The translations under genes and the position numbers were made by a program. From Bacillus gaemokensis (GTDB lineage Bacteria > Bacillota > Bacilli > Bacillales > Bacillaceae_G), in the NCBI RefSeq assembly GCF_001590835.1, contig NZ_LTAQ01000012.1:217169-281168 (forward strand): a stretch of DNA of 64,000 bases. The letters are read 5' to 3'. Shown one piece after another: positions 8,841-25,306 of this stretch. Each line of letters begins with the position of its first letter. Position 1 is the stretch's first letter. The notes under the pieces are model-generated. The model was not told the DNA's origin. It did no database searches and saw nothing but the letters and a program-made list of their open reading frames with translations.

Positions 8841-10028
8841 TTGAAAAAAACATTAATTTCTGTAATATTGCCGATATACAATGTAGAAATGTATATAGCA
8901 GAGTGCTTAGATTCTTTAGTTGATCAAACAATTGGCGTAGAGAATTTAGAAGTTATTATGGTGAATGATTGTTCTACAGATGGTACTGGAAAGATTTTGG
9001 ATCAATATGCTTTGAAGTATGATAATTTCAAAGTTATACATTTAGAAAAGAACTGTGGTGCACCCGGAAAACCAAGAAATATTGGTATTGATCTTGCGAG
9101 AGGTAAATATTTAATATTTATGGATCCAGATGATTATGTACCAGCAGATGCATATGAAACTCTATTTAATATAGCAGAAGAATATAAATCAGATTTTGTT
9201 ATGGGGAAAATGGAAAGTTTTAATGATAGTGATGGATCAACATTCCAACATTCAACATTTAAACATTATCTTTTACAAAAACCATATATGAATACCAATA
9301 CAGAAATTTCTCCATTCTTTTTACAGGTGAAGACAGCTATTACTTTAAAGTTAGTGAGAACTTCATTCATTAGGCAGCATAAGATTTCTTTCATTGAAGG
9401 AATGAGAAATGGAGAAGACAAGTTTTATGATATACAGCTATTCGCAAAAGCAAAGAAATTTAGTTATATCCCTAAAAATGTTTATAGATATAGAGCACGT
9501 GATGATGAGAATAATTTATCTTTGACACAACAAGACATTATTGCTTCAGTTACGAATGATGTAAAATCTGCAGAAGTAATTAAACTCAAGTTGAATAAAA
9601 AAGAATATAACTATTTTCAGGTAAATGCTTTGAGGTCTATTTTATGGAAAGTTTGCGATCCGGATTTTAATAAACTATCAATCCAACAAAAAAAAGAACT
9701 TATTAATTTAATTAAAGGCGTAGTGGATGACTATGATGTTGAAATAACAAGAAAATATTTGGTATGGGAAGAGCCTCTTTTGAGTTTAATTGCCAAAGAA
9801 CATATAGATGAAGCGTTAGAGTATAATAGCATGCTAATTTCAAGAAGATGGTGGTTAAAGCAAGGAACTGAATTACAGCAAAAATACAGAAAACAAAGTG
9901 CTATTCGTAATAGTTTTTCGTGGAAAATTACTAAATATCTCAGAAAAAAGAATTTCAAATTGAAAGATATTATAAAAAGGAGATTTAGGAATGAAACTAA
10001 GCGTAGTAACACAATTACAAACTCATGA
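8841..10028 (+). CDS. GT2-family glycosyltransferase
   Basis: 395 aa, TTG start 4 nt after the previous stop with an AGAGGTG site. The GT2 domain has LISVILPIYNVEMYIAECLDS, MVNDCSTDGTG, GAPGKPRNIGIDLARGKYL and the DxD box FMDPDDYV (about 96-103). GEDKFYD follows at about 190. The C-terminus (about 300-395) is alpha-helical and basic. It overlaps the next gene by 38 nt in a different frame, so the three GT2-containing genes are translated as a tight unit. Probably it transfers one sugar of the repeat unit. Confidence 0.86.
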   Translation: MKKTLISVILPIYNVEMYIAECLDSLVDQTIGVENLEVIMVNDCSTDGTGKILDQYALKYDNFKVIHLEKNCGAPGKPRNIGIDLARGKYLIFMDPDDYVPADAYETLFNIAEEYKSDFVMGKMESFNDSDGSTFQHSTFKHYLLQKPYMNTNTEISPFFLQVKTAITLKLVRTSFIRQHKISFIEGMRNGEDKFYDIQLFAKAKKFSYIPKNVYRYRARDDENNLSLTQQDIIASVTNDVKSAEVIKLKLNKKEYNYFQVNALRSILWKVCDPDFNKLSIQQKKELINLIKGVVDDYDVEITRKYLVWEEPLLSLIAKEHIDEALEYNSMLISRRWWLKQGTELQQKYRKQSAIRNSFSWKITKYLRKKNFKLKDIIKRRFRNETKRSNTITNS

Positions 10029-12150
10029 TGAAGCTGTAATTAAACAAGCATTCGACGTATTACAGAGACAGACTATTAATGTTAATAATTTTGAATGGGT
10101 TATTTTCCACAATAACGAAAATGCCACTCAAGAAATAGTTGAATATGTGGAAACCTTAAAAAGAAGTTATAAAGTGAATATATTGATAAAAGAAGGGGAT
10201 CTTGAGGTTAAAGAATTAAAGGGAGAGTATGTTACTTTCTTTGATTTTTATGATAAATTTAGACCTAATGTATATGGGTTATTATATGACGCTGCCAAAA
10301 AGAGTGATTTAGATTTTATAGCAGCTTGTTTAGAAAAAAAATCCCAAAAAAATTTGATAAATAAAGAGAATATACTACATAGTGATTTCAATACAATTAC
10401 TACATTAAAGTTGATAAAAAAGGAAGTTTTATTATCACAAGGACTGAGTTTTATTTCGAAAATGAATTCATCTAATATTAGATGTTTAGATTTTAGATTA
10501 TACTTATCAAATCTTCGTTATGAGTTTGCGAACGAAATAAAATATAAAAATAAAACGCCATTTAATGAAGACTATGTAATAAGTTCTATACAAGATATAG
10601 ATTATATTTTAGAGTTTTTAATAAGTAATTATGGACAAGATTTTAATAAGGATATAAGAGTAATACTATTTAATCAAATATTATATTTAATAGATAAAAA
10701 TACCTTTTTAAATGAAATAGAAAAAAGCCATCAAGATAAATTATTGGATACATTAAGAAAAATCATATATATTTCGGATAAATCTGTTTATGAAGGAAAT
10801 GAAGGATATAATACCTTTTTAGATCTTATAAACTTAAATTTATATGAAGAAGCAATTCAGTATATGAAAATTTTCAGAAGTCGACGATATTGGTATAATC
10901 AATCTCAAAAATTTGAAAAGTATTTTAAAAAAAATCCGCATGATTTAGAAGAGTCCTTATCATGGAGAGTCACAAAGCCGATCAGAGGGATCAAATCTAC
11001 GTTTGAATATGTTAAGGGTTCTTTATATAAATTCTTTATTCTCTTGCTAAGCTTATTTGTACGAGTAAAAGTTGGTGGGAAACAAATTTGGTTGGTTGGA
11101 GAACGTGAAGATCAAGCTGAAGATAATGGATATTTCTTTTTCAAGTATTGCCGTGAAAACTACTCATCACAAAAAATATATTATGTAATTAATCAGGATT
11201 CACCTCACTTAGATAAAGTGGAGAAGTATGGTAACGTTATATATCATTCATCTCTTAAGCATAAAGTTTATATGCTAGCTGCAAGTACTTATATAAGTGC
11301 ATGGGTGTTTGAAGAGTGCTCATATCCTAGACAGAAACAAGAGTTTATTAGATGGTTTGGGAAAAGGGTTTCTAAAAAAACTAATATTTGTTTACAGCAC
11401 GGTGTGATTATTCACAACATTGCTCCGTATTTAAGTAAAGAAAGATATAAACAAGATTTAATTATTTCAAGCTCAGAATATGAAAAGAAAATTATTATGA
11501 AAACATTAGGATATCCTGAAGGGGATGTAGCGGTAACTGGACTGGCTAGATTTGATAATCTTCATCAAAGAAAGACGAAGAAACAAATTTTAATTATGCC
11601 AACATGGCGTAGACATTTATCAAATGTAAATAAAGTTCAATTTCTACAGTCGGATTATTATAAAGCCTATAAAGATTTAATTACTAATCAAGAATTTTTA
11701 GATCTAATAGAAAAGAAAGATATACCAGTTAAGTTTTATGTGCATAGTCAAATGCAAAAGTTTATGGATGAATTTGTTATAGAGCATCCTCAAATAGAAT
11801 TTTTAGTAAAAAGTAATGCAATTGTATCAGAGCTGTTAAAAGAAAGTGCATTGCTAATTACTGATTACTCATCTGTATCATCGGATTTCTTATATATGGA
11901 GAAGCCGGTTATAATGTATCAGTTTGATCCGCATAATAATCACCATGCTCCTTGTGAAGAAATAAAATATAATGAATTGGGCTTTGTTGTTTCTTCTGAA
12001 AATGAATTAATTAAGCAAATAAATAAAGTTATAGATAATAATTTAAAAATTAATAAGAGATATCTAGCGAATTCGAAAAGGATTTTCAAACATAAGGATG
12101 TTCATAATGCCCAAAGGATTTATAACATAATTAAAGAAAAAACTTCTTAA
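9991..12150 (+). CDS. TagF-type polyol-phosphate polymerase with degenerate GT2 domain
   Basis: 719 aa. The N-terminal 120 residues keep the GT2 layout (MKLSVVTQLQTHDEAVIKQA, KGEYVTFFDFYDKF), but the nucleotide-binding DDGS and DxD boxes are replaced (FFDFYDKF for FLDADDY), so this half is probably not catalytic. Residues about 365-710 form a Glyphos_transf domain with IWLVGEREDQAEDNG, CLQHGVIIH, VTGLARFD, MPTWRRH and LLITDYSSVSSDFLYMEKP. It is expected to polymerise or prime glycerol/ribitol phosphate. A terminator follows at 12162, ending the first transcription unit of the cluster. Confidence 0.85.
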   Translation: MKLSVVTQLQTHDEAVIKQAFDVLQRQTINVNNFEWVIFHNNENATQEIVEYVETLKRSYKVNILIKEGDLEVKELKGEYVTFFDFYDKFRPNVYGLLYDAAKKSDLDFIAACLEKKSQKNLINKENILHSDFNTITTLKLIKKEVLLSQGLSFISKMNSSNIRCLDFRLYLSNLRYEFANEIKYKNKTPFNEDYVISSIQDIDYILEFLISNYGQDFNKDIRVILFNQILYLIDKNTFLNEIEKSHQDKLLDTLRKIIYISDKSVYEGNEGYNTFLDLINLNLYEEAIQYMKIFRSRRYWYNQSQKFEKYFKKNPHDLEESLSWRVTKPIRGIKSTFEYVKGSLYKFFILLLSLFVRVKVGGKQIWLVGEREDQAEDNGYFFFKYCRENYSSQKIYYVINQDSPHLDKVEKYGNVIYHSSLKHKVYMLAASTYISAWVFEECSYPRQKQEFIRWFGKRVSKKTNICLQHGVIIHNIAPYLSKERYKQDLIISSSEYEKKIIMKTLGYPEGDVAVTGLARFDNLHQRKTKKQILIMPTWRRHLSNVNKVQFLQSDYYKAYKDLITNQEFLDLIEKKDIPVKFYVHSQMQKFMDEFVIEHPQIEFLVKSNAIVSELLKESALLITDYSSVSSDFLYMEKPVIMYQFDPHNNHHAPCEEIKYNELGFVVSSENELIKQINKVIDNNLKINKRYLANSKRIFKHKDVHNAQRIYNIIKEKTS

Positions 12151-12263: not shown

Positions 12264-13913
12264 ATGTATAAATTAAGCAGCTTGAACTTTGACAATAAAA
12301 GCGTATCTATCAAAGTTATGTCTCAAGGGAATATTGATAAAAATAATGATTTTCGATTGAGTTGTTTCATTTTTAATGAGAAACAATTGCTTATACATGA
12401 ACATATTGAAAAAACGGTTATAAGAGAAGATTTGCTTGAGAGTAACATAGAATTTAATGCTATTTTATATTTGAATTTATTACTACAGCAGGGTTATGTA
12501 GTAAATCTATTCATAAAAGTGGACGAAAAGTATTATCCTATTCAGATGGATATCTTAGAATTTGGACAACCTAAATATAAAATACCTGTTACAGATACTT
12601 TGTATCTAGAACCAAAAAATAATAAGACTCTTTCATTTATGACTTATCAAATACAAAAAGCCATTAAATTATCAGGATTCGAAATGAATGAAGATAATTT
12701 AAATCTTTCAATTCCTAAAAATAAGAAGGAATTGAAAGGTTGTGGTAAATGTTGGATTGTATTTAAGAGAAGAAATGAAGACGAGTATGATGAACAATTA
12801 AAGTGTGAAGTTCAGATCAAAGAAAATATATTAAATTTTAAGAGTACAGTTAAAGAGGTATTTCATAATTTTAGTTTACATAATGAAACTATTATAGATG
12901 TTGTTATTGGGATAGAAGGTAATAATGTATATGAAGAGTTTTACTTGGAAGCCCCTAATAAAAATTATAGTTATACTAAGGTTAAATCCAATAGTTCTGT
13001 TAAAGCGTACATAAATAATAAAGGATACTTGAGTATTTATACACGAAAAAATGGTGAGGAATTAAATACTAAGAAAGAGTTTGTAACAAATAAAGATTCA
13101 AAGGCAGTTACTGTAGCGATTTTAGGTTCTTGTGTAACAAGAGACAATTTTAATAGTAAATTTAATTATGATTATAAGCGTTATTATGAATGTGTTTTAT
13201 TACAAAATCAAACTTCAATTATTAGCTTGCTGGAAAAACCAATAACATTCCCAGTAAATAAAGTTACTGAGTTAAATCAGTGGGATTCTAATGATATGAG
13301 GGCTGATTTTGAAAAGAACTTTTTAAATAAATTAGAAGAAGAACAACCAGATTACCTTATTATGGACTTTTTTGGTGATGTTTTCTTCGGATGCATGAAG
13401 CTTGCTGATACTTATGTTACAAATAATTATTGGAAATTAGGAAAAACACAATTTGTTAAAGAAGTAAAAAATCCACAGTACTTAAATATTATAAGAGATA
13501 CTGAAGATTATCTAGTATTATGGAAAAAAGCAATCCATAACCTATTTAAGATATTAAAAGAAAGAGTTCCTAATTGTAAGATTGTTGTTCATAAAGCAAG
13601 GTTTGTAGAATTTTATTATGATGAGAATAATCGATTACAAAGAATAGATCCAAGTATAGATGTAGCGTTAGTGAATAAATACTGGAGTATTTTAGATAAT
13701 TATGTATTAGAGAAATTTAATGTTCAATGTATTGATTTAAATCATAAGAGTTATACTGCTTATGAGGCGCACCCTTGGGGGTTATTTGGTGTTCATTATG
13801 ATCCTAAATACTATAATGACTTTTTAAATCATTTACACGAAATCGTATTAACAAACTATCTTGAGAAAGCTACACCGGTATATAAAAGTATTTTTGAAGT
13901 TTTAAAGAAATAA
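12264..13913 (+). CDS. Cluster protein with C-terminal Cys-motif SGNH-like domain
   Basis: 549 aa, ATG after GAAAGAGG. Residues 1-270 look beta-rich with alternating hydrophobic residues and no signal peptide. From about 288 a distinct domain begins: AVTVAILGSCVTRDNFNSKF, then SIISLLEKP, DYLIMDFFGD, KIVVHKARF, NKYWSILDNYV, IDLNHKSYTA and GLFGVHYDPKYYNDFL. The same ordered motifs occur in the protein at 17962. The layout (strand-Gly-x-nucleophile, late His) recalls SGNH/GDSL folds but with Cys where Ser is usual. It may be the DUF6270 family (from memory, unverified). A polymer-modifying esterase or transferase is inferred from context only. Confidence 0.7.
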   Translation: MYKLSSLNFDNKSVSIKVMSQGNIDKNNDFRLSCFIFNEKQLLIHEHIEKTVIREDLLESNIEFNAILYLNLLLQQGYVVNLFIKVDEKYYPIQMDILEFGQPKYKIPVTDTLYLEPKNNKTLSFMTYQIQKAIKLSGFEMNEDNLNLSIPKNKKELKGCGKCWIVFKRRNEDEYDEQLKCEVQIKENILNFKSTVKEVFHNFSLHNETIIDVVIGIEGNNVYEEFYLEAPNKNYSYTKVKSNSSVKAYINNKGYLSIYTRKNGEELNTKKEFVTNKDSKAVTVAILGSCVTRDNFNSKFNYDYKRYYECVLLQNQTSIISLLEKPITFPVNKVTELNQWDSNDMRADFEKNFLNKLEEEQPDYLIMDFFGDVFFGCMKLADTYVTNNYWKLGKTQFVKEVKNPQYLNIIRDTEDYLVLWKKAIHNLFKILKERVPNCKIVVHKARFVEFYYDENNRLQRIDPSIDVALVNKYWSILDNYVLEKFNVQCIDLNHKSYTAYEAHPWGLFGVHYDPKYYNDFLNHLHEIVLTNYLEKATPVYKSIFEVLKK

Positions 13914-13955
13914 ACATATTTTGCATTAATGAAATACATGGAGATGATACAATCG

Positions 13956-15239
13956 ATGAAAGTCTGTGTAATAGGCTTAGGATATATAGGTCTTCCTACT
14001 TCTGCTATGTTTGCAAAGCATGGTGCTGAAGTAGTTGGAGTAGATGTAAGAACAGAAGTGGTAGATAAGTTGAACAGAGGAGAGGCCCATATCGAAGAGC
14101 CAGGTTTAGATGAAGTTGTGGAAGAAGTGGTGAAAAAAGGATCACTTCGTGCTTCTTTAAACCCAGAAATAGCAGATGCTTTTATTATAGCTGTACCAAC
14201 ACCAAATAATGAAGATCAATATAAGTCTTGTGATTTAACTTATGTTTTAGATGCTACTAAACAAATAATTCCATATATTAAACCGGGAAATGTAATTATT
14301 ATTGAATCTACCATTGCCCCAAGAAGTATGGATGATTATGTGAGACCATTGGTAGAAGAGAGTGGTTTTTCAGTTGGAGAGGATGTATATTTAGTTCATT
14401 GTCCAGAACGAGTACTTCCAGGAAGTATTTTGAAAGAACTTATCCATAATAATCGAATTATAGGTGGAGTAACATCGCATTGTGCGAAAGAGGGTGCAGA
14501 GGTATATAATACCTTTGTACAAGGGGAGATTATTCAAACAGATGCGAGAACAGCGGAAATGTCCAAGTTAATGGAAAATACATTCCGAGATGTAAATATC
14601 GCACTTTCTAATGAATTAACAAAAATTTGTAATTCGTTAGAGATTAATGCGTTAGATGTAATTAAAATGGCTAACAAACATCCACGTGTGAATTTACACC
14701 AACCAGGACCAGGAGTAGGTGGTCATTGTTTGGCAGTGGATCCATATTTTATCGTAGCGCAAGAGCCTAAATTAGCGAACATAATTCAACTAGCACGAAA
14801 TACGAACAATTCAATGCCATCTTATGTCGTGGATAGTATTAAAAAAATACTAAAAGAAAACAAGCACTCGAAAATTGCTGTCTTTGGTGTGACATATAAG
14901 GGTAATGTTGATGATATGAGGGAAAGTCCAGCACTTGAGGTTATTGATTTGTTAAGGATTGTGGGTTTTGATGTTGCAATTTATGATCCGTATATTAACA
15001 AGGAATTCTTTGATGTTGTTTCTATTGAGGAAGCTGTAATGGATGCACACTTAATTCTTGTGCTAACAGATCATAATGAGTTTAAAGAGTTAGATTATGA
15101 TTATCTAGCAAATATGATGAAAAATCCAGTCCTGTTTGACACACGTAATTGTATACGAGAAAGTGAGAGTAGTAATATGAAGATTATCAATTTTGGTAAT
15201 TTGTATAGAGTGTTACCGGAAAATGTGAGTATTATATGA
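13956..15239 (+). CDS. UDP-N-acetylmannosamine dehydrogenase (WecC family)
   Basis: 427 aa from the ATG at 13956, which gives the family start MKVCVIGLGYIGLPTSAMFA. Other in-frame ATGs lie at 13929, 13938 and 13944. The NAD-binding Gly motif is GLGYIGLP, and the catalytic Cys lies in GPGVGGHCLAVDPYF (about 249-263). CPERVLPG, FRDVNIALSNEL and MANKHPRVN match UDP-ManNAc dehydrogenases rather than UDP-glucose dehydrogenases. It makes UDP-ManNAcA by two NAD-dependent oxidations. A uronic amino sugar beside TagF-type enzymes points to a polymer mixing teichoic and teichuronic features. The stop overlaps the tagG-like start (ATGA). Confidence 0.92.
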   Translation: MKVCVIGLGYIGLPTSAMFAKHGAEVVGVDVRTEVVDKLNRGEAHIEEPGLDEVVEEVVKKGSLRASLNPEIADAFIIAVPTPNNEDQYKSCDLTYVLDATKQIIPYIKPGNVIIIESTIAPRSMDDYVRPLVEESGFSVGEDVYLVHCPERVLPGSILKELIHNNRIIGGVTSHCAKEGAEVYNTFVQGEIIQTDARTAEMSKLMENTFRDVNIALSNELTKICNSLEINALDVIKMANKHPRVNLHQPGPGVGGHCLAVDPYFIVAQEPKLANIIQLARNTNNSMPSYVVDSIKKILKENKHSKIAVFGVTYKGNVDDMRESPALEVIDLLRIVGFDVAIYDPYINKEFFDVVSIEEAVMDAHLILVLTDHNEFKELDYDYLANMMKNPVLFDTRNCIRESESSNMKIINFGNLYRVLPENVSII

Positions 15240-16042
15240 GAGCGATAAGAAATATTGTTCAAGAACAACTAGATAATATATATTTAATGGCAAGACTTTC
15301 TGTGTATGAATTAAAACAGGCGTACGCAGGTAGTGCGTTAGGGATTGTTTGGATATTCTTAAATCCTTTAATACAAATTTTTGTTTATTGGTTGGTATTT
15401 GGTTTAGGCATTCGTGGAGGGGCGCCTGTAGAAGGCGTTCCCTTCTTTGTTTGGATGATATGTGGAATCATTCCTTGGTTTTTTATTAATGGCTCTATTT
15501 TACAAGGATCCAATTCTATTTATGCAAAGCTGAATACGGTTTCGAAAATGAATTTCCCACTTAGTGTTATTCCAACATATATAATACTATCTCAACTGTA
15601 TACACATGTTGTTTTACTTATTGTCTTATTATTGATAGTGGCGGCGACAAAAGGATTAAGTTTTCTTGGGATCGTGGGAGTTTTATACTGTGGACTTTCA
15701 GCATTTTTCTTTTTAGTTTCCTTAGCGTTTATTACATCAACTCTATCAACTATTTTGAGAGATATTCATTTGTTTATACAATCGATTACACGTATGTTAT
15801 TTTATTTAACACCTGTTTTGTGGAAACCAAGTGAACATATGGCATGGATATTTGTATTATTAATGAAAATAAATCCATTCTATTATATAGTTGAAGGTTA
15901 TCGTTCTTCATTATTGCACGGTGATATTAGTTTTATATGGTCATTGTATACATTATATTTTTGGGGAATTGCTATTATTTTATTTGTAATCGGATCTATT
16001 TTTCATATAAGATTCCGTAAACAGTTTGTTGACTACTTATAA
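15236..16042 (+). CDS. tagG: Teichoic-acid type ABC exporter permease (TagG-like)
   Basis: 268 aa ABC-2 permease with six predicted membrane helices. The N-terminus (LMARLSVYELKQAYAGSALGIVWIFLNPLIQIFVYWLVF, in parts) and the PWFFING, LNPFYYIVEGYR-like (here KINPFYYIVEGYR) motifs are those of TagG and O-antigen/WTA permeases. It moves the lipid-linked polymer across the membrane with the ATPase encoded 15 nt downstream. The 4-nt ATGA overlap with the dehydrogenase indicates coupled translation. A housekeeping tagGH may exist elsewhere in the genome, so orthology to tagG is likely but not certain. Confidence 0.9.
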   Translation: MRAIRNIVQEQLDNIYLMARLSVYELKQAYAGSALGIVWIFLNPLIQIFVYWLVFGLGIRGGAPVEGVPFFVWMICGIIPWFFINGSILQGSNSIYAKLNTVSKMNFPLSVIPTYIILSQLYTHVVLLIVLLLIVAATKGLSFLGIVGVLYCGLSAFFFLVSLAFITSTLSTILRDIHLFIQSITRMLFYLTPVLWKPSEHMAWIFVLLMKINPFYYIVEGYRSSLLHGDISFIWSLYTLYFWGIAIILFVIGSIFHIRFRKQFVDYL

Positions 16043-16057
16043 AAGGTGAATGATTCA

Positions 16058-17710
16058 ATGGATTATAAAGTGAAGTTTGAACATGTTACAAAAAAGTATA
16101 AGATGTATAACAAACCTTCTGATAAATTAAAAGATTTATTTTTTAAGAGGCAAGAAGGTGATTATCATTATGCGTTAAATAATATTTCTTTTGAAGTACC
16201 AGAAGGAGAAATTATTGGAATAATAGGCTTAAATGGTTCTGGTAAGAGCACAATGTCTAATTTAATTGCTGGTGTAACCATCCCAAATAAAGGGAAGATA
16301 AATATTAAAGGATCTGCAGCTTTAATTGCCATTGCTTCAGGATTAAATAACCAATTAACAGGTATTGAAAATATTGAGTTAAAAGGTTTAATGATGGGGC
16401 TTACGAAAGAACAAATTCAGGACATCACGCCAAAAGTTATCGAATTCGCTGATATTGGAAAATTTATGTATCAACCTGTTAAAACATATTCGAGTGGAAT
16501 GAAGTCAAGAATTGGTTTTGCAATTTCAGTTCATATTAACCCAGATGTTTTGGTAATCGATGAAGCTCTCTCTGTTGGAGATCAAACTTTTACGAAAAAA
16601 TGCTTGGATAAAATGAATGAGTTTAAAGAACAAGGAAAAACGATTTTTTTTATTAGTCACTCCCTCTCTCAAGTGAAAAGTTTCTGTACCAAAGCAATTT
16701 GGCTACATTATGGGCAAATGAAAGAGTACGGCGATGTAAATGAAGTAGTAGATCATTACAGTATGTTTTTAAAGCAATATAATCAGATGAATATAGAAGA
16801 AAAAAGGCAACTGCGTGAAGAACAAACCTTACAATTTCAACATGGTTTATTGCAGGAGCAATTAGTGAAAACCCCAAGGAGAAATTATAAGGCAAAAAAA
16901 CAACAACGTAAATTAAGCAAGAAAAGTAGTATATTAGTTGGAACTGCGATTGTTATTCTTACAGGTATAATTACAATTGGATTAAATTATAAAGCTTTTG
17001 CTTCGTTAATAAGAGGAAATGAAAATAAAGAAAAAATGGTTCAAAGTAAAATTATTCCTGAAGATAAATCGGCTAAAGAAAGTCCTTCAAATAATAAGAA
17101 GTATATGGTGAATAGCAATAATATTAGTATTCGAAGAGAACCAATTACAAGTAGTGAACGATTAGTACTGACGAATTTTGGAGAAGTATTTACTGTACCT
17201 AATTTTAAAGAAAAAAATGAAACTAATAATGGTTGGATACAAATAGTTCTTGCTAATGGTGAATCTGGTTGGCTAAGTGCAGAGTATGCCGTGCCATTCA
17301 CGCCAAGTAAGAGCACGATGGATGACACAAAATTAGATGATGTAATATCATTGTTAAACCGTGTGTATGGATTAGCTTTAAAACAAGCACCTACATATTT
17401 TGGAAAAACATTAGACGAGCTTAAAGCCGTATATCCTCGTAATTTAATTCCATTACAAACTGTGGTAGGTAAAACAAGTTATAAGGATGGAAATGTGAAA
17501 TTTGTTATCTCTGAAACTAAAGTAATAGAAATTGTATTTCAGGATATTTCAATGTCTATAGCTAAGCTACATGAACTACTGGGTAAAGAAAGTATAAATA
17601 ATGATTCCGAAAAGAATTATTTCTTTGAAACAAAAAGTTATTACATCGCAGCCCGTTCTGATGAAACTCATCAGGAAATTCAATCTTTATCAATTATGAT
17701 AAAAAAATAG
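16058..17710 (+). CDS. tagH: Teichoic-acid type ABC exporter ATPase with extracellular SH3 tail (TagH-like)
   Basis: 550 aa. ATG 16058 is preferred because AAAAGGTGA lies 9 nt upstream and overlaps the alternative GTG at 16046. The ATPase half has Walker A GLNGSGKST (about 60-68), signature YSSGMKSRIGFA (about 147-158) and Walker B VLVIDEALSVGD. After a coiled basic stretch there is one membrane helix (about 290-308), then an SH3b-like segment (NISIRREP to GWLSAEYA, about 355-410) and a C-terminal domain. This long extended form is the B. subtilis TagH architecture, so it indicates export of a wall teichoic acid-like polymer. A strong terminator follows. Confidence 0.93.
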   Translation: MDYKVKFEHVTKKYKMYNKPSDKLKDLFFKRQEGDYHYALNNISFEVPEGEIIGIIGLNGSGKSTMSNLIAGVTIPNKGKINIKGSAALIAIASGLNNQLTGIENIELKGLMMGLTKEQIQDITPKVIEFADIGKFMYQPVKTYSSGMKSRIGFAISVHINPDVLVIDEALSVGDQTFTKKCLDKMNEFKEQGKTIFFISHSLSQVKSFCTKAIWLHYGQMKEYGDVNEVVDHYSMFLKQYNQMNIEEKRQLREEQTLQFQHGLLQEQLVKTPRRNYKAKKQQRKLSKKSSILVGTAIVILTGIITIGLNYKAFASLIRGNENKEKMVQSKIIPEDKSAKESPSNNKKYMVNSNNISIRREPITSSERLVLTNFGEVFTVPNFKEKNETNNGWIQIVLANGESGWLSAEYAVPFTPSKSTMDDTKLDDVISLLNRVYGLALKQAPTYFGKTLDELKAVYPRNLIPLQTVVGKTSYKDGNVKFVISETKVIEIVFQDISMSIAKLHELLGKESINNDSEKNYFFETKSYYIAARSDETHQEIQSLSIMIKK

Positions 17711-17721
17711 TGCAAATGGTT

Positions 17722-17762
17722 GAGAGATTTACCTTTTTGTTTAGGTAAATCTCTTTTTTTAA
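17722..17762 (+). terminator. Terminator after tagH-like gene
   Basis: A perfect 12-bp stem AGAGATTTACCT/AGGTAAATCTCT with 8-nt loop and seven or more T residues. Confidence 0.92.
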
Positions 17763-17961
17763 TTTGGTATAATGAGATGATGTCTGATGACTTATTTATT
17801 ATAATGAGTTTGAGGGATGAATCTCTTGGGAAATGAAAAAATTAATGGGGATATTTGTATGGAGAATAAAGAGAGAGCGAATAAGAATAGGATTTATTGA
17901 AGAATTACTAATTATAAAGGCGTTATATATTAATGGTGAATGATAGGGAGAGGGTTTGTAC

Positions 17962-20019
17962 ATGGAAGTTAAAATAGATGAAATAGCATATAGGCCTAAA
18001 CAAGAGAAAATAACAATTATGGGGACCTCTACTATGGGGCAGGGAAAATTTGTTTTACGAAAAAGAAGAACTCATCGTGATTTTGAATTTCCTTTAGAAT
18101 TTGAACTGGAAGTAGCTTTTAAAGAAGAACTCTTTCAAATTGATATTGATTTACAACTTATTATAGACAAACAAGGGCTAAATGATGAAGCCACATGGCT
18201 AATATATATGGTTTCTGGAGAAAATGAATATTTAGTTAAGGTAAATAATAATATTGAGAATAAATTTGAATACTTTTATAGTAAAAAAAGTATTTTTAAA
18301 CTGGTTCCATATATAACAAAAGATAAAATTTTAGCGTTTTATGTAAGAGGATTAGATCTTGTTCCAGTTGTAAAAAATATGGATTACTTAAATGGAAATC
18401 TCTCAGCAAACATCTTTTTATCTGGAAAGGATAGTAAGTATTTAAAGAAAGAAAAAATAAAGATTACCTTTAAAAGAAGAAATCAAGTGAATATGCCTTT
18501 CCATGATGTCAGTATAAATACGAATGGTTTACCAGTAATGGAGAATACCATAGATGTGGAAGTGAATATTTCAGAAAGAATTCCACTCATTAATAAAGAT
18601 AAGGAAGTATGTTGGGATGTTTTGGTAAGCGTATATAATGAAGAAGAAACTGAAGGCTATACTTTACCTTTACAAGTTGAAAGTTCATTAAAAAAGCAAG
18701 TCTTTAGATATATGCGACTTAAAGCTAATAACTTCTTCTATACTAGACCTTATATCACAGGTGATAATCGATTAGCAATTTACCAATCGGATATGGTTAA
18801 TAGAGTTCAACTAGAGGCAGTAGTGGATAATAATGAATTTATAAACGTGGCTGTAGATTTGGAATTTGTTAGTGAAAGAGAATTGTCAGAGGCTAACCTA
18901 GTCATCAAGAGAAGAGAAAGAGTTGGCAATGGATATGAATACTATGCAGAAACGCTATATAAATTAGAAAATAAGAACGAAAAATTTACTGTTCAAATTA
19001 ATAAAAAGGATATATTAAATAAACATATTCTAAGAGATAAAGAAGTCTGGGATTTCTTTGTAAGAGTTAAAACCGATAAGAATAATGAAAGTGATTTGCA
19101 GCTTGACGTTTCAAAACAACTTAAAAATGAGTTTTCATATTTTGATATAAAGTCTATAGATAAAAGTATGAAGGCCAAGTTGTTTATAAATGGTTTATCT
19201 AAGCTTTCTTTATATGTTGCGGAAGGTAAGAATACAAATAAAGATGCCATTAAGGTGGCTGTATTGGGAACATGCTTTAGTAGAAATGCATTCAATTCAA
19301 GTCCATATTTCAATCCTAATTACAAAAAAATATATAATTGTGTCTACACACAATTTCATTCCTCTATAATTAGTCTTGTTTCAAATCCAGTTCCATTAAC
19401 TGTTGAAGAATTAACAGGTGTTAGAGAGAACGATAAAAACTTTGTTGCAGTTGATTTTGATAAAAGCTTTTTTGATAAATTAAAAGAATCACAGGCCGAT
19501 TATTTGATTTTGGATCTTTACTCAGATGCATCAAAAGCTATATTGAGATTTAATGATGACAGGTATGTTAGTTGTAGTTATATACTGGAAGACAGTAGCT
19601 ATATCAATCAAGTAGAAAATGTAAAAATTATAGATCATTCAAATCAGGAAAGATATTTCGATATTTGGAAAGATGCAGTTGAAAAATTTATTAAAAAGTT
19701 AACAGAGATATTACCAGAAGAAAGAATTATTCTAAATAAGGGAAGATTTACTTCTACTTATTTTGATGAAAATAGAGAGATTAAGTCATTTTCAGATCCG
19801 CAATTGATTCATAGAAATAATTATTTTTGGGATAAACTTGATAATTATTTTATGTATCTTATGCCAGGTGTAAAATTTATAGACTTAACGGATACAAGTT
19901 ATATTGGGGATGCAACATATCCGTTTGGTACATCCTTCTCTCATTATGAATCTGGATATTATAAGGAATTTTTAAATCGCTTAAACAACTTGGTTATTCC
20001 GGAACAATTAAATAAATAG
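17962..20019 (+). CDS. Larger paralogue with C-terminal Cys-motif SGNH-like domain
   Basis: 685 aa. The ATG at 17962 follows AGGGAGAGGG, and an in-frame TTG lies 6 nt upstream. The first 420 residues are beta-rich and appear to hold two or three related modules (charged strands, repeated KRRxxVN-like segments). The last 260 residues match the C-terminal domain of the protein at 12264: VAVLGTCFSRNAFNSSPYF, SIISLVSNP, DYLILDLYSD, RIILNKGRF, FWDKLDNYF, KFIDLTDTSYIG and GTSFSHYESGYYKEFLNRL. No signal peptide is visible. It is transcribed separately (terminator before, terminator after). Function is unknown; polymer modification is the best guess from location. Confidence 0.68.
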   Translation: MEVKIDEIAYRPKQEKITIMGTSTMGQGKFVLRKRRTHRDFEFPLEFELEVAFKEELFQIDIDLQLIIDKQGLNDEATWLIYMVSGENEYLVKVNNNIENKFEYFYSKKSIFKLVPYITKDKILAFYVRGLDLVPVVKNMDYLNGNLSANIFLSGKDSKYLKKEKIKITFKRRNQVNMPFHDVSINTNGLPVMENTIDVEVNISERIPLINKDKEVCWDVLVSVYNEEETEGYTLPLQVESSLKKQVFRYMRLKANNFFYTRPYITGDNRLAIYQSDMVNRVQLEAVVDNNEFINVAVDLEFVSERELSEANLVIKRRERVGNGYEYYAETLYKLENKNEKFTVQINKKDILNKHILRDKEVWDFFVRVKTDKNNESDLQLDVSKQLKNEFSYFDIKSIDKSMKAKLFINGLSKLSLYVAEGKNTNKDAIKVAVLGTCFSRNAFNSSPYFNPNYKKIYNCVYTQFHSSIISLVSNPVPLTVEELTGVRENDKNFVAVDFDKSFFDKLKESQADYLILDLYSDASKAILRFNDDRYVSCSYILEDSSYINQVENVKIIDHSNQERYFDIWKDAVEKFIKKLTEILPEERIILNKGRFTSTYFDENREIKSFSDPQLIHRNNYFWDKLDNYFMYLMPGVKFIDLTDTSYIGDATYPFGTSFSHYESGYYKEFLNRLNNLVIPEQLNK

Positions 20020-21844: not shown

Positions 21845-22762
21845 ATGAAGAAGAAAATTCTATTTTGGTTTTTAGGAATTGTAGGTGTGCTTATAATTGG
21901 TACAGGTGTTTATGCATATAGTATTTATTCATCTGTTTCAAGTACTTTAGATAAAGTTCATAAGCCGTTAGATCGTGACCATTCGAAGAAACGTACAGAG
22001 GAAGTAAAAGTAGAGGATTCAAAACCAGTATCTATTCTATTAATGGGTGCGGATGAGCGTGCGGGTGATCAAGGGCGTTCAGATTCGTTAATGGTAATTA
22101 CTTTAAATCCAAAACAAAAATCAATGAAACTATTAAGTATTCCGCGTGATACATATACAGAGATTGTTGGTAAAGGCAAGAAAGATAAGATCAATCATGC
22201 GTATGCATTTGGTGGTCTTAACATGTCAGTTAATACCGTGGAAAATTTCTTGAATACACCAATTGATTATTATATTGAGGTAAATATGGAAGGGTTTAAA
22301 GATATTGTTGACGCAGTTGGTGGGGTAGACGTAAACAATGATTTAGACTTTACACAAGATCATACGCATTTTGCAAAGGGTAATATACATTTAAATGGTG
22401 AAGAAGCTCTAAAATATACACGTATGAGAAAGAAAGATCCACGTGGTGATTTCGGTCGTCAAATGCGTCAACGTCAAGTACTACAAGCTGTTATTAGTAA
22501 AGGAGCAAGTTTCTCTTCTCTTACAAACTATGGAGATGTTTTAAAAGCGATTGAAAAAAATGTAAAAACAAACTTAACACAAGATCAAATGTTTGATATG
22601 CAAAAAAATTATAAGGAAGCAATGAAAAATAAAGAAGAGATTCAAATTCAAGGCGATGGACGCAAGGCCGAAGATGGTATTTGGTATTACTTTGTGCCTG
22701 ATCAAGAGCGGCAAAGTTTATCAGATAAACTTCGGGAACATCTTGAGATAAAAGGAAAGTAA
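21845..22762 (+). CDS. LytR-CpsA-Psr family polymer ligase (first copy)
   Basis: 305 aa. One N-terminal membrane helix (about 4-24) leaves the LCP domain outside. Motifs are ILLMGADERAGDQGRSDSLMV (here ILLMGADERAGD and GRSDSLMV, about 61-81), SIPRDTYTEIVGKGKKDKINHAYAFGG (SIPRDTY, KINHAYAFGG) and DPRGDFGRQMRQRQVL (about 198-213). The conserved Arg and Asp residues bind polyprenyl-pyrophosphate and magnesium. LCP enzymes move anionic polymers from the lipid carrier to peptidoglycan. With TagGH and the glycosyltransferases upstream, this enzyme is a good candidate for attaching the cluster polymer. About three quarters identical by eye to the copy at 24395. Confidence 0.94.
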   Translation: MKKKILFWFLGIVGVLIIGTGVYAYSIYSSVSSTLDKVHKPLDRDHSKKRTEEVKVEDSKPVSILLMGADERAGDQGRSDSLMVITLNPKQKSMKLLSIPRDTYTEIVGKGKKDKINHAYAFGGLNMSVNTVENFLNTPIDYYIEVNMEGFKDIVDAVGGVDVNNDLDFTQDHTHFAKGNIHLNGEEALKYTRMRKKDPRGDFGRQMRQRQVLQAVISKGASFSSLTNYGDVLKAIEKNVKTNLTQDQMFDMQKNYKEAMKNKEEIQIQGDGRKAEDGIWYYFVPDQERQSLSDKLREHLEIKGK

Positions 22763-22942
22763 GATTACAAAAAGAATTAGAGTATTGATAAGGGAATTGT
22801 TTTCTTTTTTTAATAATAATTAGAAATGATATCTTAATTTATTTACAAATTAATTGGAATTTTAACACTATATTGTTAAAAGGATAAATCTGTATTAGGT
22901 TATATAATTAGGAAGAAATCTTATAAGTAAGGGTGATTATTG

Positions 22943-23827
22943 TTGAAAAAAGTAAGAAAAGCAATTATTCCAGCTGCAGGCTTAGGAACCAGATTTTTAC
23001 CTGCAACAAAGGCGATGCCGAAAGAAATGTTACCGATTGTTGATAAGCCAACGATTCAGTATATTGTAGAAGAGGCAATTGAATCTGGAATTGAAGATAT
23101 TATTATTGTTACAGGAAAAGGTAAGCGTGCAATTGAGGATCACTTCGATCATTCTTTTGAACTAGAGGAAAATTTATTAGCAAAAAAGAAATTTGAGCTT
23201 CTTGCTAAAGTGCAGGAATCATCAAAGATTAATATACACTATATTCGTCAGAAAGAGCCAAAAGGTTTAGGGCATGCTGTTTGGTGTGCACGTAAGTTTA
23301 TCGGAAATGAACCATTTGCTGTATTACTTGGGGATGATATTGTACAAGCAGATAAGCCTTGTTTACGTCAATTAATGGATGAATATGATAAAACAACAGC
23401 ATCTGTAATTGGTGTACAAACAGTATCAGAAAATGAAACACATCGTTACGGTATCATTGATCCAATAGAGCAAAAGAATCGTCGTTACCAAGTCAGAACA
23501 TTTGTAGAAAAACCAGCCCAAGGAACAGCTCCATCAAATTTAGCGATTATGGGACGCTATATCTTAACGCCAGAAATTTTTGCTTTGCTAGACGGACAAC
23601 AGACTGGCGCTGGTGGCGAAATTCAATTAACTGATGCAATTCAACGTTTAAATGAAACACAGCGTGTATTTGCATATGATTTTGAAGGAAAACGCTACGA
23701 TGTTGGAGAAAAGCTAGGATTTATTCAAACAACGATTGAAATGGCGATGCAACATGAAGAATTAAGACAAGAACTTTTAAATTATATGAAACACCTTGTT
23801 GAAAATGAACTTAGTGCGATGAGATAA
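22943..23827 (+). CDS. galU: UTP-glucose-1-phosphate uridylyltransferase
   Basis: 294 aa from TTG 22943; TTG 22940 is also possible after AAGGGTGAT. The pyrophosphorylase signature [29 protein letters not shown] and its parts, [22 protein letters not shown] and FVEKP are all present. It makes UDP-glucose, the donor for glucosylation of wall polymers and glycolipid anchors (B. subtilis name gtaB). Its position between two LCP ligases ties it to the surface polymer pathway. Confidence 0.96.
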
Positions 23828-24394: not shown

Positions 24395-25306
24395 ATGAAA
24401 AAAATTCTATTTTGGATACTTGGTATTATTCTTGTTCTTGTCATTGCAGGAGGTGGTTATGCGTATTATATGTACTCATCTGTTACTGGTACGTTAAATA
24501 AGATGCATACGCCACTTGAGCGGGATCATTCTACGAAACGATCGACAGATGTTAAATTAGGAAATAAACAACCTGTGTCTATCCTATTATTAGGGGCAGA
24601 TGAGCGTGGCGCAGATAAAGGTCGTTCGGATTCGATTATGTTGTTAACGTTAAATCCGAAGGACAGTTCAATGAAGATGGTTAGTATTCCTCGGGATACA
24701 TATACGGAGATTGTTGGTAAAGGAAAGAAGGATAAGATTAATCATGCGTATGCATTTGGCGGAATTAATATGTCTGTGAATACGGTGGAGAATTTCTTAA
24801 ATGTACCGGTTGATTATTATATTGAAGTGAATATGGAAGGTTTCAGTGATATTGTTGACGCTGTTGGTGGTGTTGATGTGAATAATGATTTAGCGTTTAC
24901 CCTTGAAGGTATGTCGTTTGAAAAAGGAAATATTCATTTAAACGGTGAGCAAGCACTGAAGTATACGCGTATGCGTAAGGAAGATCCTCGTGGTGACTTT
25001 GGCCGCCAAATGCGTCAGCGCCAAGTGTTAGAAGCGGTTATTAGTAAAGGGGCGAGTATATCGTCTATTACGAAACTAGGAACGATGTTAGAGACTGTTG
25101 AGAAGAACGTAAAAACAAATTTAAACCAGGATCAAATGTGGGATCTTCAAAGCAATTATAAAGCTGCGATGAATAAGAAAGAAGAGGTTCAAATTCCTGG
25201 TGACGGTCGTAAGCAAGATGGTGTTTGGTATTATTTCGTTCCGGATAAGGATCGTAAAGACCTTTCTAATAAGTTGAGAGAGCATTTAGAGTTGCCTAAG
25301 CAGTAA
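24395..25306 (+). CDS. LytR-CpsA-Psr family polymer ligase (second copy)
   Basis: 303 aa, same architecture as the copy at 21845: one N-terminal helix (about 4-24), then LCP motifs ILLLGADERGADKGRSDSIM (parts), SIPRDTYTEIV, KINHAYAFGGINMSVNTVENF and DPRGDFGRQMRQRQVLEAV. Differences concentrate in the region after VGGVDVNNDL (about 160-172), which could alter acceptor or polymer preference. It has its own promoter. Codon use is more GC-rich at third positions than in the first copy, so the pair may not be a recent tandem duplication. Confidence 0.94.
   Translation: MKKILFWILGIILVLVIAGGGYAYYMYSSVTGTLNKMHTPLERDHSTKRSTDVKLGNKQPVSILLLGADERGADKGRSDSIMLLTLNPKDSSMKMVSIPRDTYTEIVGKGKKDKINHAYAFGGINMSVNTVENFLNVPVDYYIEVNMEGFSDIVDAVGGVDVNNDLAFTLEGMSFEKGNIHLNGEQALKYTRMRKEDPRGDFGRQMRQRQVLEAVISKGASISSITKLGTMLETVEKNVKTNLNQDQMWDLQSNYKAAMNKKEEVQIPGDGRKQDGVWYYFVPDKDRKDLSNKLREHLELPKQ

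Follow-up and report, generated by a model that had tools for sequence, protein, structure and literature searches.

What do two long proteins do whose genes stand among those for a teichoic-type polymer, and which share a cysteine motif at the start of their C-terminal domains? The question is raised by a stretch of 64,000 nucleotides from Bacillus gaemokensis (contig NZ_LTAQ01000012.1, positions 217,169 to 281,168), here called the window, to which all coordinates refer. By translation of the open reading frames (ORFs), Pfam and BLASTP, protein 1 (12264..13913, forward strand, 549 amino acids) divides into an N-terminal region (approximately residues 1-285) and a DUF6270 domain (286-512), and protein 2 (17962..20019, forward strand, 685 amino acids from the ATG at 17962) carries an N-terminal region with internal repeats (approximately residues 1-433) in front of a domain of the same family. 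The answer we favour, with a probability of roughly 0.45, is that both would be cytoplasmic Cys-His acyl-transferring enzymes, which decorate a teichoic-like polymer before its export.

The DUF6270 domain and its likeness to SGNH enzymes

The C-terminal domains match Pfam DUF6270 (PF19786), an established family without stated function, with E 2.1e-31 and 110 bits for protein 1 and E 4.4e-24 and 86.1 bits for protein 2, compared with a curated cut-off of 27.5 bits, and both matches span the whole 222-position profile. NCBIfam gave nothing for protein 1 and only E 0.069 as the best for protein 2, and our literature search of open-licence papers found DUF6270 named in none. BLASTP aligned the two proteins with E 3e-48 and 34% identity over 308 columns, from residue 235 to 535 in protein 1 and from 393 to 687 in protein 2, the latter in the numbering from TTG 17956, where the program-listed ORF opens; the ATG at 17962 comes after GGGAGAGGG. 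Because the pair aligns at this E value and both members match one Pfam family at full length, their likeness is, at the level of sequence, far above chance. All motifs named in the first-pass annotation were found in translation and in the same order in both ORFs: LGSC (287-290), SIISL (318-322), DYLIMD (363-368), HKARF (443-447), WSILDNY (474-480) and GVHY (509-512) in protein 1, and LGTC (435-438), SIISL (468-472), DYLILD (513-518), NKGRF (592-596), WDKLDNY (623-629) and FSHY (659-662) in protein 2. The candidate nucleophile of protein 1 is Cys290 (codon 13131..13133) in LGSCVTRD, the block I equivalent; His511 (13794..13796), in HPWGLFGVHY, aligns with the SGNH block-V His, and DFFGD (13365..13379), with Asp368 and Asp372, aligns with the block-III region. 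The corresponding residues of protein 2 are Cys438 (19273..19275) in LGTCFSRN and His661 (19942..19944) in YPFGTSFSHY, all four codons and DFFGD being read on the forward strand.

Kinship with the SGNH enzymes was approached by profile-profile comparison with hhalign, the E values being those of single comparisons. A DUF6270 profile of 54 rows matched 21 domains of Lipase_GDSL_2 (PF13472) with E 2.1e-4 and a probability of 46%, versus E 0.13 for the reversed GDSL control and 0.02 for the best of 24 neighbourhood gene families taken as a null. A 10-row subfamily without the window type gave E 1.1e-4 and the remaining 41 rows 2.3e-3, and a merged set of GDSL and TAP domains aligned with DUF6270 over 190 columns (E 6.2e-4), pairing Cys with Ser and the two His with each other. 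In the longer alignments LGSCVT pairs with LGDSLT, such that Cys290 and His511 take the positions of the nucleophile Ser and the catalytic His, respectively, and in the merged one GVHYDPKYY falls on the block-V His, no clear equivalent of the block-II Gly being seen. A positive control, GSCFA against GDSL_2, reached 93% and E 2.4e-7. By these E values the GDSL_2 match alone stands clear of the negatives, and it appears probable from the profiles that DUF6270 is kin to the SGNH enzymes. Matches of single members to Pfam (Lipase_GDSL at 0.019 in 1 of 28 members) were given no weight, as unrelated families score alike.

Several results weigh against this kinship and the catalytic reading built on it. 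When 25 of the 51 and 12 of the 21 rows were drawn at random, eight such draws gave E values from 8e-4 to 0.19, the default GDSL_2 alignments, including those of the subfamily and the subsets, cover the C-terminal half alone, and the pairing of Cys with Ser comes from a forced extension and from the merged GDSL/TAP comparison. DltD gave no match to DUF6270 (E 0.39) and TAP-like 0.01, and some negatives lie fairly near, the best of nine further negative profiles being a response regulator (E 0.0034 over 12 columns) and an ATP-binding cassette (ABC) ATPase (0.015); GSCFA against reversed GDSL still scored E 0.0064. Sequence searches of the PDB with protein 1, a 28-row profile and a 10-row core profile yielded no credible relative, the best match being an exopolyphosphatase-related chain at E 0.023. 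With respect to the individual blocks, the block-III Asn falls opposite a gap beside Asp372 in the merged alignment, and the Asp three positions before the block-V His is absent, being replaced by Phe508 in protein 1 and Ser in protein 2, with an acid in 0 of 50 rows. The cysteine had been described at first as occupying the place of the SGNH/GDSL nucleophile; the long profile alignment agrees with this and places the His likewise, whereas the block-III Asn and the block-V Asp have no counterpart.

Removal of identical copies left 54 DUF6270 domains. Asp368 is kept in all 54 of them and Arg293 in 50 of 52, and the Cys is found in 50 of the 52 rows without a gap at its column. The two other rows at the Cys column carry Ala (L063 and L064; L numbers denote loci and G numbers genomes) and are weak partial matches, which were excluded from the tree for length together with L060, which covers one fragment of a disrupted gene. 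The tree alignment has 51 rows, close kin among them (L014/L015/L017, L058/L059 and L030/L056); in it, Cys replaces the block-I nucleophile Ser in 49 of the 49 rows covering the site and the C-terminal His is kept in 50 of 50. No letter stands at the Cys in L023, whose coding sequence falls in two frames, or in L067, which is a weak match. The invariance claimed for the cysteine holds for these 49 long rows but not for the two weak partial relatives with Ala; the latter and L067, in which no residue is aligned at the Cys, are possibly an inactive branch, to judge by their residues. These three weak relatives (wider loci L155 and L170) have UGDH- and GT2-like genes in their neighbourhood.

In the tree, protein 1 clusters with L007 and the Gottfriedia luciferensis homologue L008 (support 0.87), and protein 2 shares a branch (support 0.97) with L062, L061, the second copy of L009 from Bacillus sp. 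EB01, L005 and L044, the last being the first of the L012 proteins. As the two branches are separate and co-occur in the window, in L009 and in L012, a recent duplication is an unlikely origin of the pair. Other DUF6270 gene pairs were seen in a Lachnospiraceae genome (L026 9974-11628, adjacent) and in Brevibacterium (L024 7788-10762).

The N-terminal regions differ in length, as had been noted (approximately 285 versus 433 residues). Self-comparison of the protein 2 region gives alignments at offsets of approximately 140 and 285 residues (probabilities 65-89%), whereas the protein 1 region gave none in the same comparison, and a Pfam scan of both found nothing credible (best E 0.019). The idea that the linker of the GT2-PF04464 protein in the window recurs in these regions was unsupported by profile comparison; that linker is resembled by the matching region of the L018 and L025 fusions described below (83%, E 8.6e-6). 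Neither protein has a hydrophobic stretch of the usual transmembrane strength (top 19-residue means of 1.46 and 1.06) or, judged by eye, a signal peptide.

Genomic company of DUF6270

DUF6270 is rare in the genome samples: it was found in 15 of 398 genomes in the class of the Bacillus seed (13 above the cut-off) and in 1 of 229, 6 of 246 and 1 of 245 in the samples seeded with Aeromonas, Brevibacterium and Lachnospiraceae, each sample counting its own seed genome. Among 14 well-known control genomes, Lactococcus lactis alone had a match. Relatives also came from 11 plasmid records, from two records that both represent Brochothrix phage NF5, from 6 viral contigs and from named genomes, which contributed 20 loci. 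The teichoic-type polymerase domain PF04464 (Glyphos_transf) was sought in 29 of the 33 genomes with DUF6270, those with partial or weak matches (G183, G194, G258 and G266) being omitted; 14 of the 29 stem from a search seeded with a window protein and the NF5 protein, and 15 from family searches. PF04464 is present in 25 of the 29, within 10 kb of DUF6270 in 18 and within 3 kb in 14, where random placement expects at most 0.61 and 0.21, respectively; the 18 linked genomes, some of the sampled genomes being close kin, include Bacilli, actinobacteria, Aeromonas and Sulfurovum. Since the control is random placement and not other polysaccharide clusters, the result shows a linkage to such polymer clusters rather than to PF04464 alone. 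The remaining 11 genomes count against the favoured reading: seven (G004, G007, G011, G014, G118, G303 and G731) have no PF04464 within 10 kb, and four (G281, G659, G662 and G869) have no match anywhere in the genome. The initial proposal that the pair modifies a wall polymer agrees with this linkage and with the genes of the cluster.

The strongest functional hint is the fusion or adjacency of DUF6270 to alpha/beta-hydrolases. Among 9 DUF6270 proteins scanned, three contain an Asp2-like region (L018 Aeromonas, L025 Micrococcales and L030, a viral contig, with L056 as its near twin) and one contains UPF0227 (L022 Sulfurovum), the hydrolase motifs of the fusions reading GFSKGG, GFSKGA, GASKGG and GSMGG. 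When excised, the L030 region exceeds the Asp2 cut-off (37.1 versus 28 bits) and the L022 region that of UPF0227 (22.3 versus 21 bits), whereas those of L018, L025 and L004 stay below (E 1.6e-5, 4.3e-5 and 1.3e-4). L004 is a Citrobacter plasmid, in which the same hydrolase domain is encoded by a separate gene directly 3' of DUF6270 (E 3.4e-5). A 5-row hydrolase profile matched, among solved proteins, XcbB/CpsF-family capsule proteins (1.6e-17), Glycosylation Associate Protein 2 (1.7e-12), SacC (2.9e-11) and Asp2 (9.4e-9). According to the available text of the respective papers, Asp2 is an O-acetyltransferase which O-acetylates N-acetylglucosamine on GspB (PMC5578698), CsaC (= SacC) O-acetylates a phosphodiester capsule with acetyl-coenzyme A (acetyl-CoA) as donor, and K15 ORF5, a proposed capsule O-acetyltransferase, is filed under UPF0227 (PMC7501274, PMC7387560). 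The order of the domains, with the hydrolase leading in L018 and L025 but trailing in L022 and L030, makes it probable that the association has more than one origin. On the other hand, if the fused hydrolase already acetylates, DUF6270 may serve another role, which weighs against acyl transfer by the domain itself.

Phage copies occur in two settings. In L027, L032 and the Mesobacillus contig L010, the DUF6270 gene belongs to a tail module, in which Dit and other tail genes precede it, and encodes 255-312 amino acids with little beyond the domain; L028 and L029 are like these loci by gene lengths alone. A protein with a (glycerophospho)diesterase match is encoded just before DUF6270 in L032 and two genes before it in L010, and the tail region of L030 also holds one protein with a glycerophosphodiester- or phosphodiesterase match. 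The second setting comprises NF5 gp24 (L001 7995-8795), which follows an amidase gene and precedes one small gene and then the integrase, L030, where DUF6270 lies downstream of the endolysin with one ORF between, and L021, where it adjoins the integrase. Places after the endolysin or beside the integrase are usual sites of lysogenic conversion genes. In the GenBank record gp24 has no product name; the neighbouring amidase gene is experimentally confirmed. The five phage copies scanned belong to no PHROGs family, and of four viral scans with single domains three were empty and one re-found L030 and L032. The tail-module copies suggest a tail enzyme or a gene travelling with the receptor-binding module, the placement in NF5, L030 and L021 suggests lysogenic conversion, and both settings, by gene order, point to a host surface polymer.

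In the window itself, the forward-strand genes around the pair were assigned by Pfam. A two-domain enzyme of GT2 glycosyltransferase and TagF-like PF04464 (6113..8836) is followed by a GT2 glycosyltransferase (8841..10028) and by a second PF04464 protein (9991..12150) directly upstream of protein 1. Between proteins 1 and 2 lie genes for an enzyme of the UDP-glucose/GDP-mannose dehydrogenase family (13929..15239), an ABC-2 type export permease (15236..16042) and an ABC ATPase (16046..17710), the latter two being TagG-like and TagH-like by context; the long C-terminal part of the ATPase is SH3_3-like (E 1.9e-4, 22 bits, under the Pfam cut-off of 27). A terminator-like hairpin 3' of the ATPase gene (17722..17755, forward strand, a consensus match only) may give protein 2 a separate transcript. 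Further downstream, two similar proteins (21845-22762 and 24395-25306) resemble LytR-CpsA-Psr ligases by eye, with a gene that looks GtaB-like (22940-23827) between them. Other genes that look by eye like spoIIID, mbl and fabZ would be in keeping with a Firmicute of the Bacillus type. Elsewhere, a Listeria DUF6270 gene (L002 9989-11440), whose protein has a C-terminal extension of approximately 220 residues, lies between eut (ethanolamine) and cob (cobalamin) genes and not in a polymer cluster, and on a Moellerella plasmid (L005 4812-10754) the gene is found amid carbamoyltransferase, SIS-domain, histidine phosphatase and HAD-IA hydrolase annotations, a set which by these names resembles a heptose pathway.

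Proposed acyl transfer and its rivals

The course of reaction that we infer, from fold and nucleophile to donor, acceptor, direction and the part of the N-terminal regions, would be as follows. The DUF6270 domain would most likely be an SGNH-type domain in diverged form, whose active site would pair Cys290 with His511 in protein 1 and Cys438 with His661 in protein 2, the Cys as nucleophile and the His as base. An acyl group, probably acetyl from acetyl-CoA, would be taken up as a Cys thioester and transferred to a hydroxyl group on the polymer or on a precursor of it. This teichoic-acid-like surface polymer of alditol-phosphate (glycerol-phosphate) type would be decorated in the cytoplasm, possibly while the N-terminal regions hold polymer or polymerase, and then exported by the ABC transporter. 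A cytoplasmic acyl-CoA donor suits proteins that lack both a TM-like segment and a signal peptide. If polymer synthesis takes place in the cytoplasm and the ABC pair carries out the export, transfer from acyl-CoA before export would be the most economical reading. In the literature search no paper joined TagF, teichoic acid and an acyltransferase.

The main rival, which we consider unlikely, takes DUF6270 for a Cys-dependent esterase that would free the polymer of O-acyl groups or D-alanyl esters; copies in phages would clear receptor polymer for the tail enzymes, and those in hosts would edit its decoration. Many characterised SGNH enzymes are esterases, in the available text of PMC9487903, and the copies in the tail modules of L010, L027 and L032, together with the diesterase-type tail-region proteins of L010, L032 and L030, fit an esterase at least as well as a transferase, which tells against our reading. 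The same three copies are, however, short and match no PHROG, and those of NF5, L030 and L021 are placed after an endolysin or beside an integrase. Teichoic-type polymers are synthesised in the cytoplasm, and the window proteins, with neither an export signal (by eye) nor a TM-like segment, would stay on that side, which also counts against the esterase.

It is improbable, in our judgement, that DUF6270 has no chemistry of its own and recruits or regulates an O-acetyltransferase or polymerase, its Cys being structural or redox-sensitive. Fusion and adjacency to hydrolases of the O-acetyltransferase type would be accounted for in this way, as would the missing canonical Asn and Asp and the weak relatives with Ala at the Cys, but Cys, Arg, Asp and His are near-absolutely conserved in the best-kept blocks. 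Moreover, a search of the window and the larger loci found the hydrolase at 6 DUF6270 loci only (L004, L018, L022, L025, L030 and L159); no window gene encodes one, and proteins 1 and 2 have no Pfam match to Asp2 or UPF0227. A fold unrelated to SGNH with another chemistry, for example transfer of a phosphorus-containing or aminoacyl group, seems more improbable again: it draws on the fact that a single SGNH family set scored clearly above the negatives, and is opposed by the recurrence of the alignment in a separate subfamily and its co-linearity at both domain ends in the merged comparison. Nothing pointed to the phosphotransferase activity that the first-pass annotation had offered beside esterase and acyltransferase, no test being aimed at it. 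Its suggestion of a new Cys-based activity is tempered by the existing Pfam family and by parallels for the Cys in GSCFA and WcbI.

Read as an acyl-transferring enzyme, DUF6270 acquires a role open to test, a class of substrates and residues that can be mutated. To our knowledge, few enzymes are known to acylate teichoic-type polymers inside the cell. If the reading is true, Cys for Ser in an SGNH-type acyltransferase would be a case of this fold working through a thioester, with implications for GSCFA and WcbI, both unexplained families, and the phage copies would be receptor-modifying genes. A wider and more doubtful extrapolation from the sequences would see in DUF6270 a Cys-nucleophile SGNH branch whose members, in Gram-negative as well as Gram-positive bacteria, transfer acyl groups from acyl-CoA to phosphodiester (teichoic-type) surface polymers in the cytoplasm; some lineages would pair it with an alpha/beta-hydrolase acetyltransferase, and temperate phages would have acquired it to remodel the phage receptor of their host.

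Comparison with known systems

Within PF19786 the window domains are ordinary members in matching the full profile above cut-off, and they are set apart by sitting in two branches and by their long N-terminal regions. The likeness to SGNH/GDSL (PF13472) consists of the profile match and, in the longer alignment, of a co-linear nucleophile block and catalytic His, while DUF6270 differs in having Cys for Ser and in lacking the block-III Asn and the block-V Asp. PatA/PatB, MBOAT-SGNH pairs, provide a case of SGNH-type acyl transfer to an envelope polymer (PMC12148441, in the text available); these work together with a membrane partner of the MBOAT type, whereas proteins 1 and 2 lack any TM-like segment and a Pfam scan of 9 cluster proteins gave no MBOAT. 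The alpha/beta-hydrolase O-acetyltransferases (CsaC/SacC, CssE and, as proposed, K15 ORF5) and Asp2 correspond to domains fused or adjacent to DUF6270 elsewhere, whereas DUF6270 itself shows no profile similarity to the hydrolase (E 0.3). GSCFA (PF08885) resembles DUF6270 in its GSC motif near the domain start; it is named for that motif, filed in the SGNH clan and of unknown function, according to the text available of PMC9487903. As a relative it was rejected (E 0.0049 over 15 columns, weaker than the response-regulator negative, and no Pfam match), and so was WcbI (PF18588; E 0.017, no better than the negatives, and no Pfam match). Like the window pair, WcbI is a polysaccharide-cluster protein, with a GNC motif in the fetched members covering the site. 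The available text of the WcbI paper, which does not use the word SGNH, calls the fold novel, reports no measured activity and describes CoA as held between Cys14 and His201 (PMC4104973). By analogy, this binding of CoA by a cysteine and a histidine offers a parallel for the mechanism proposed here for DUF6270.

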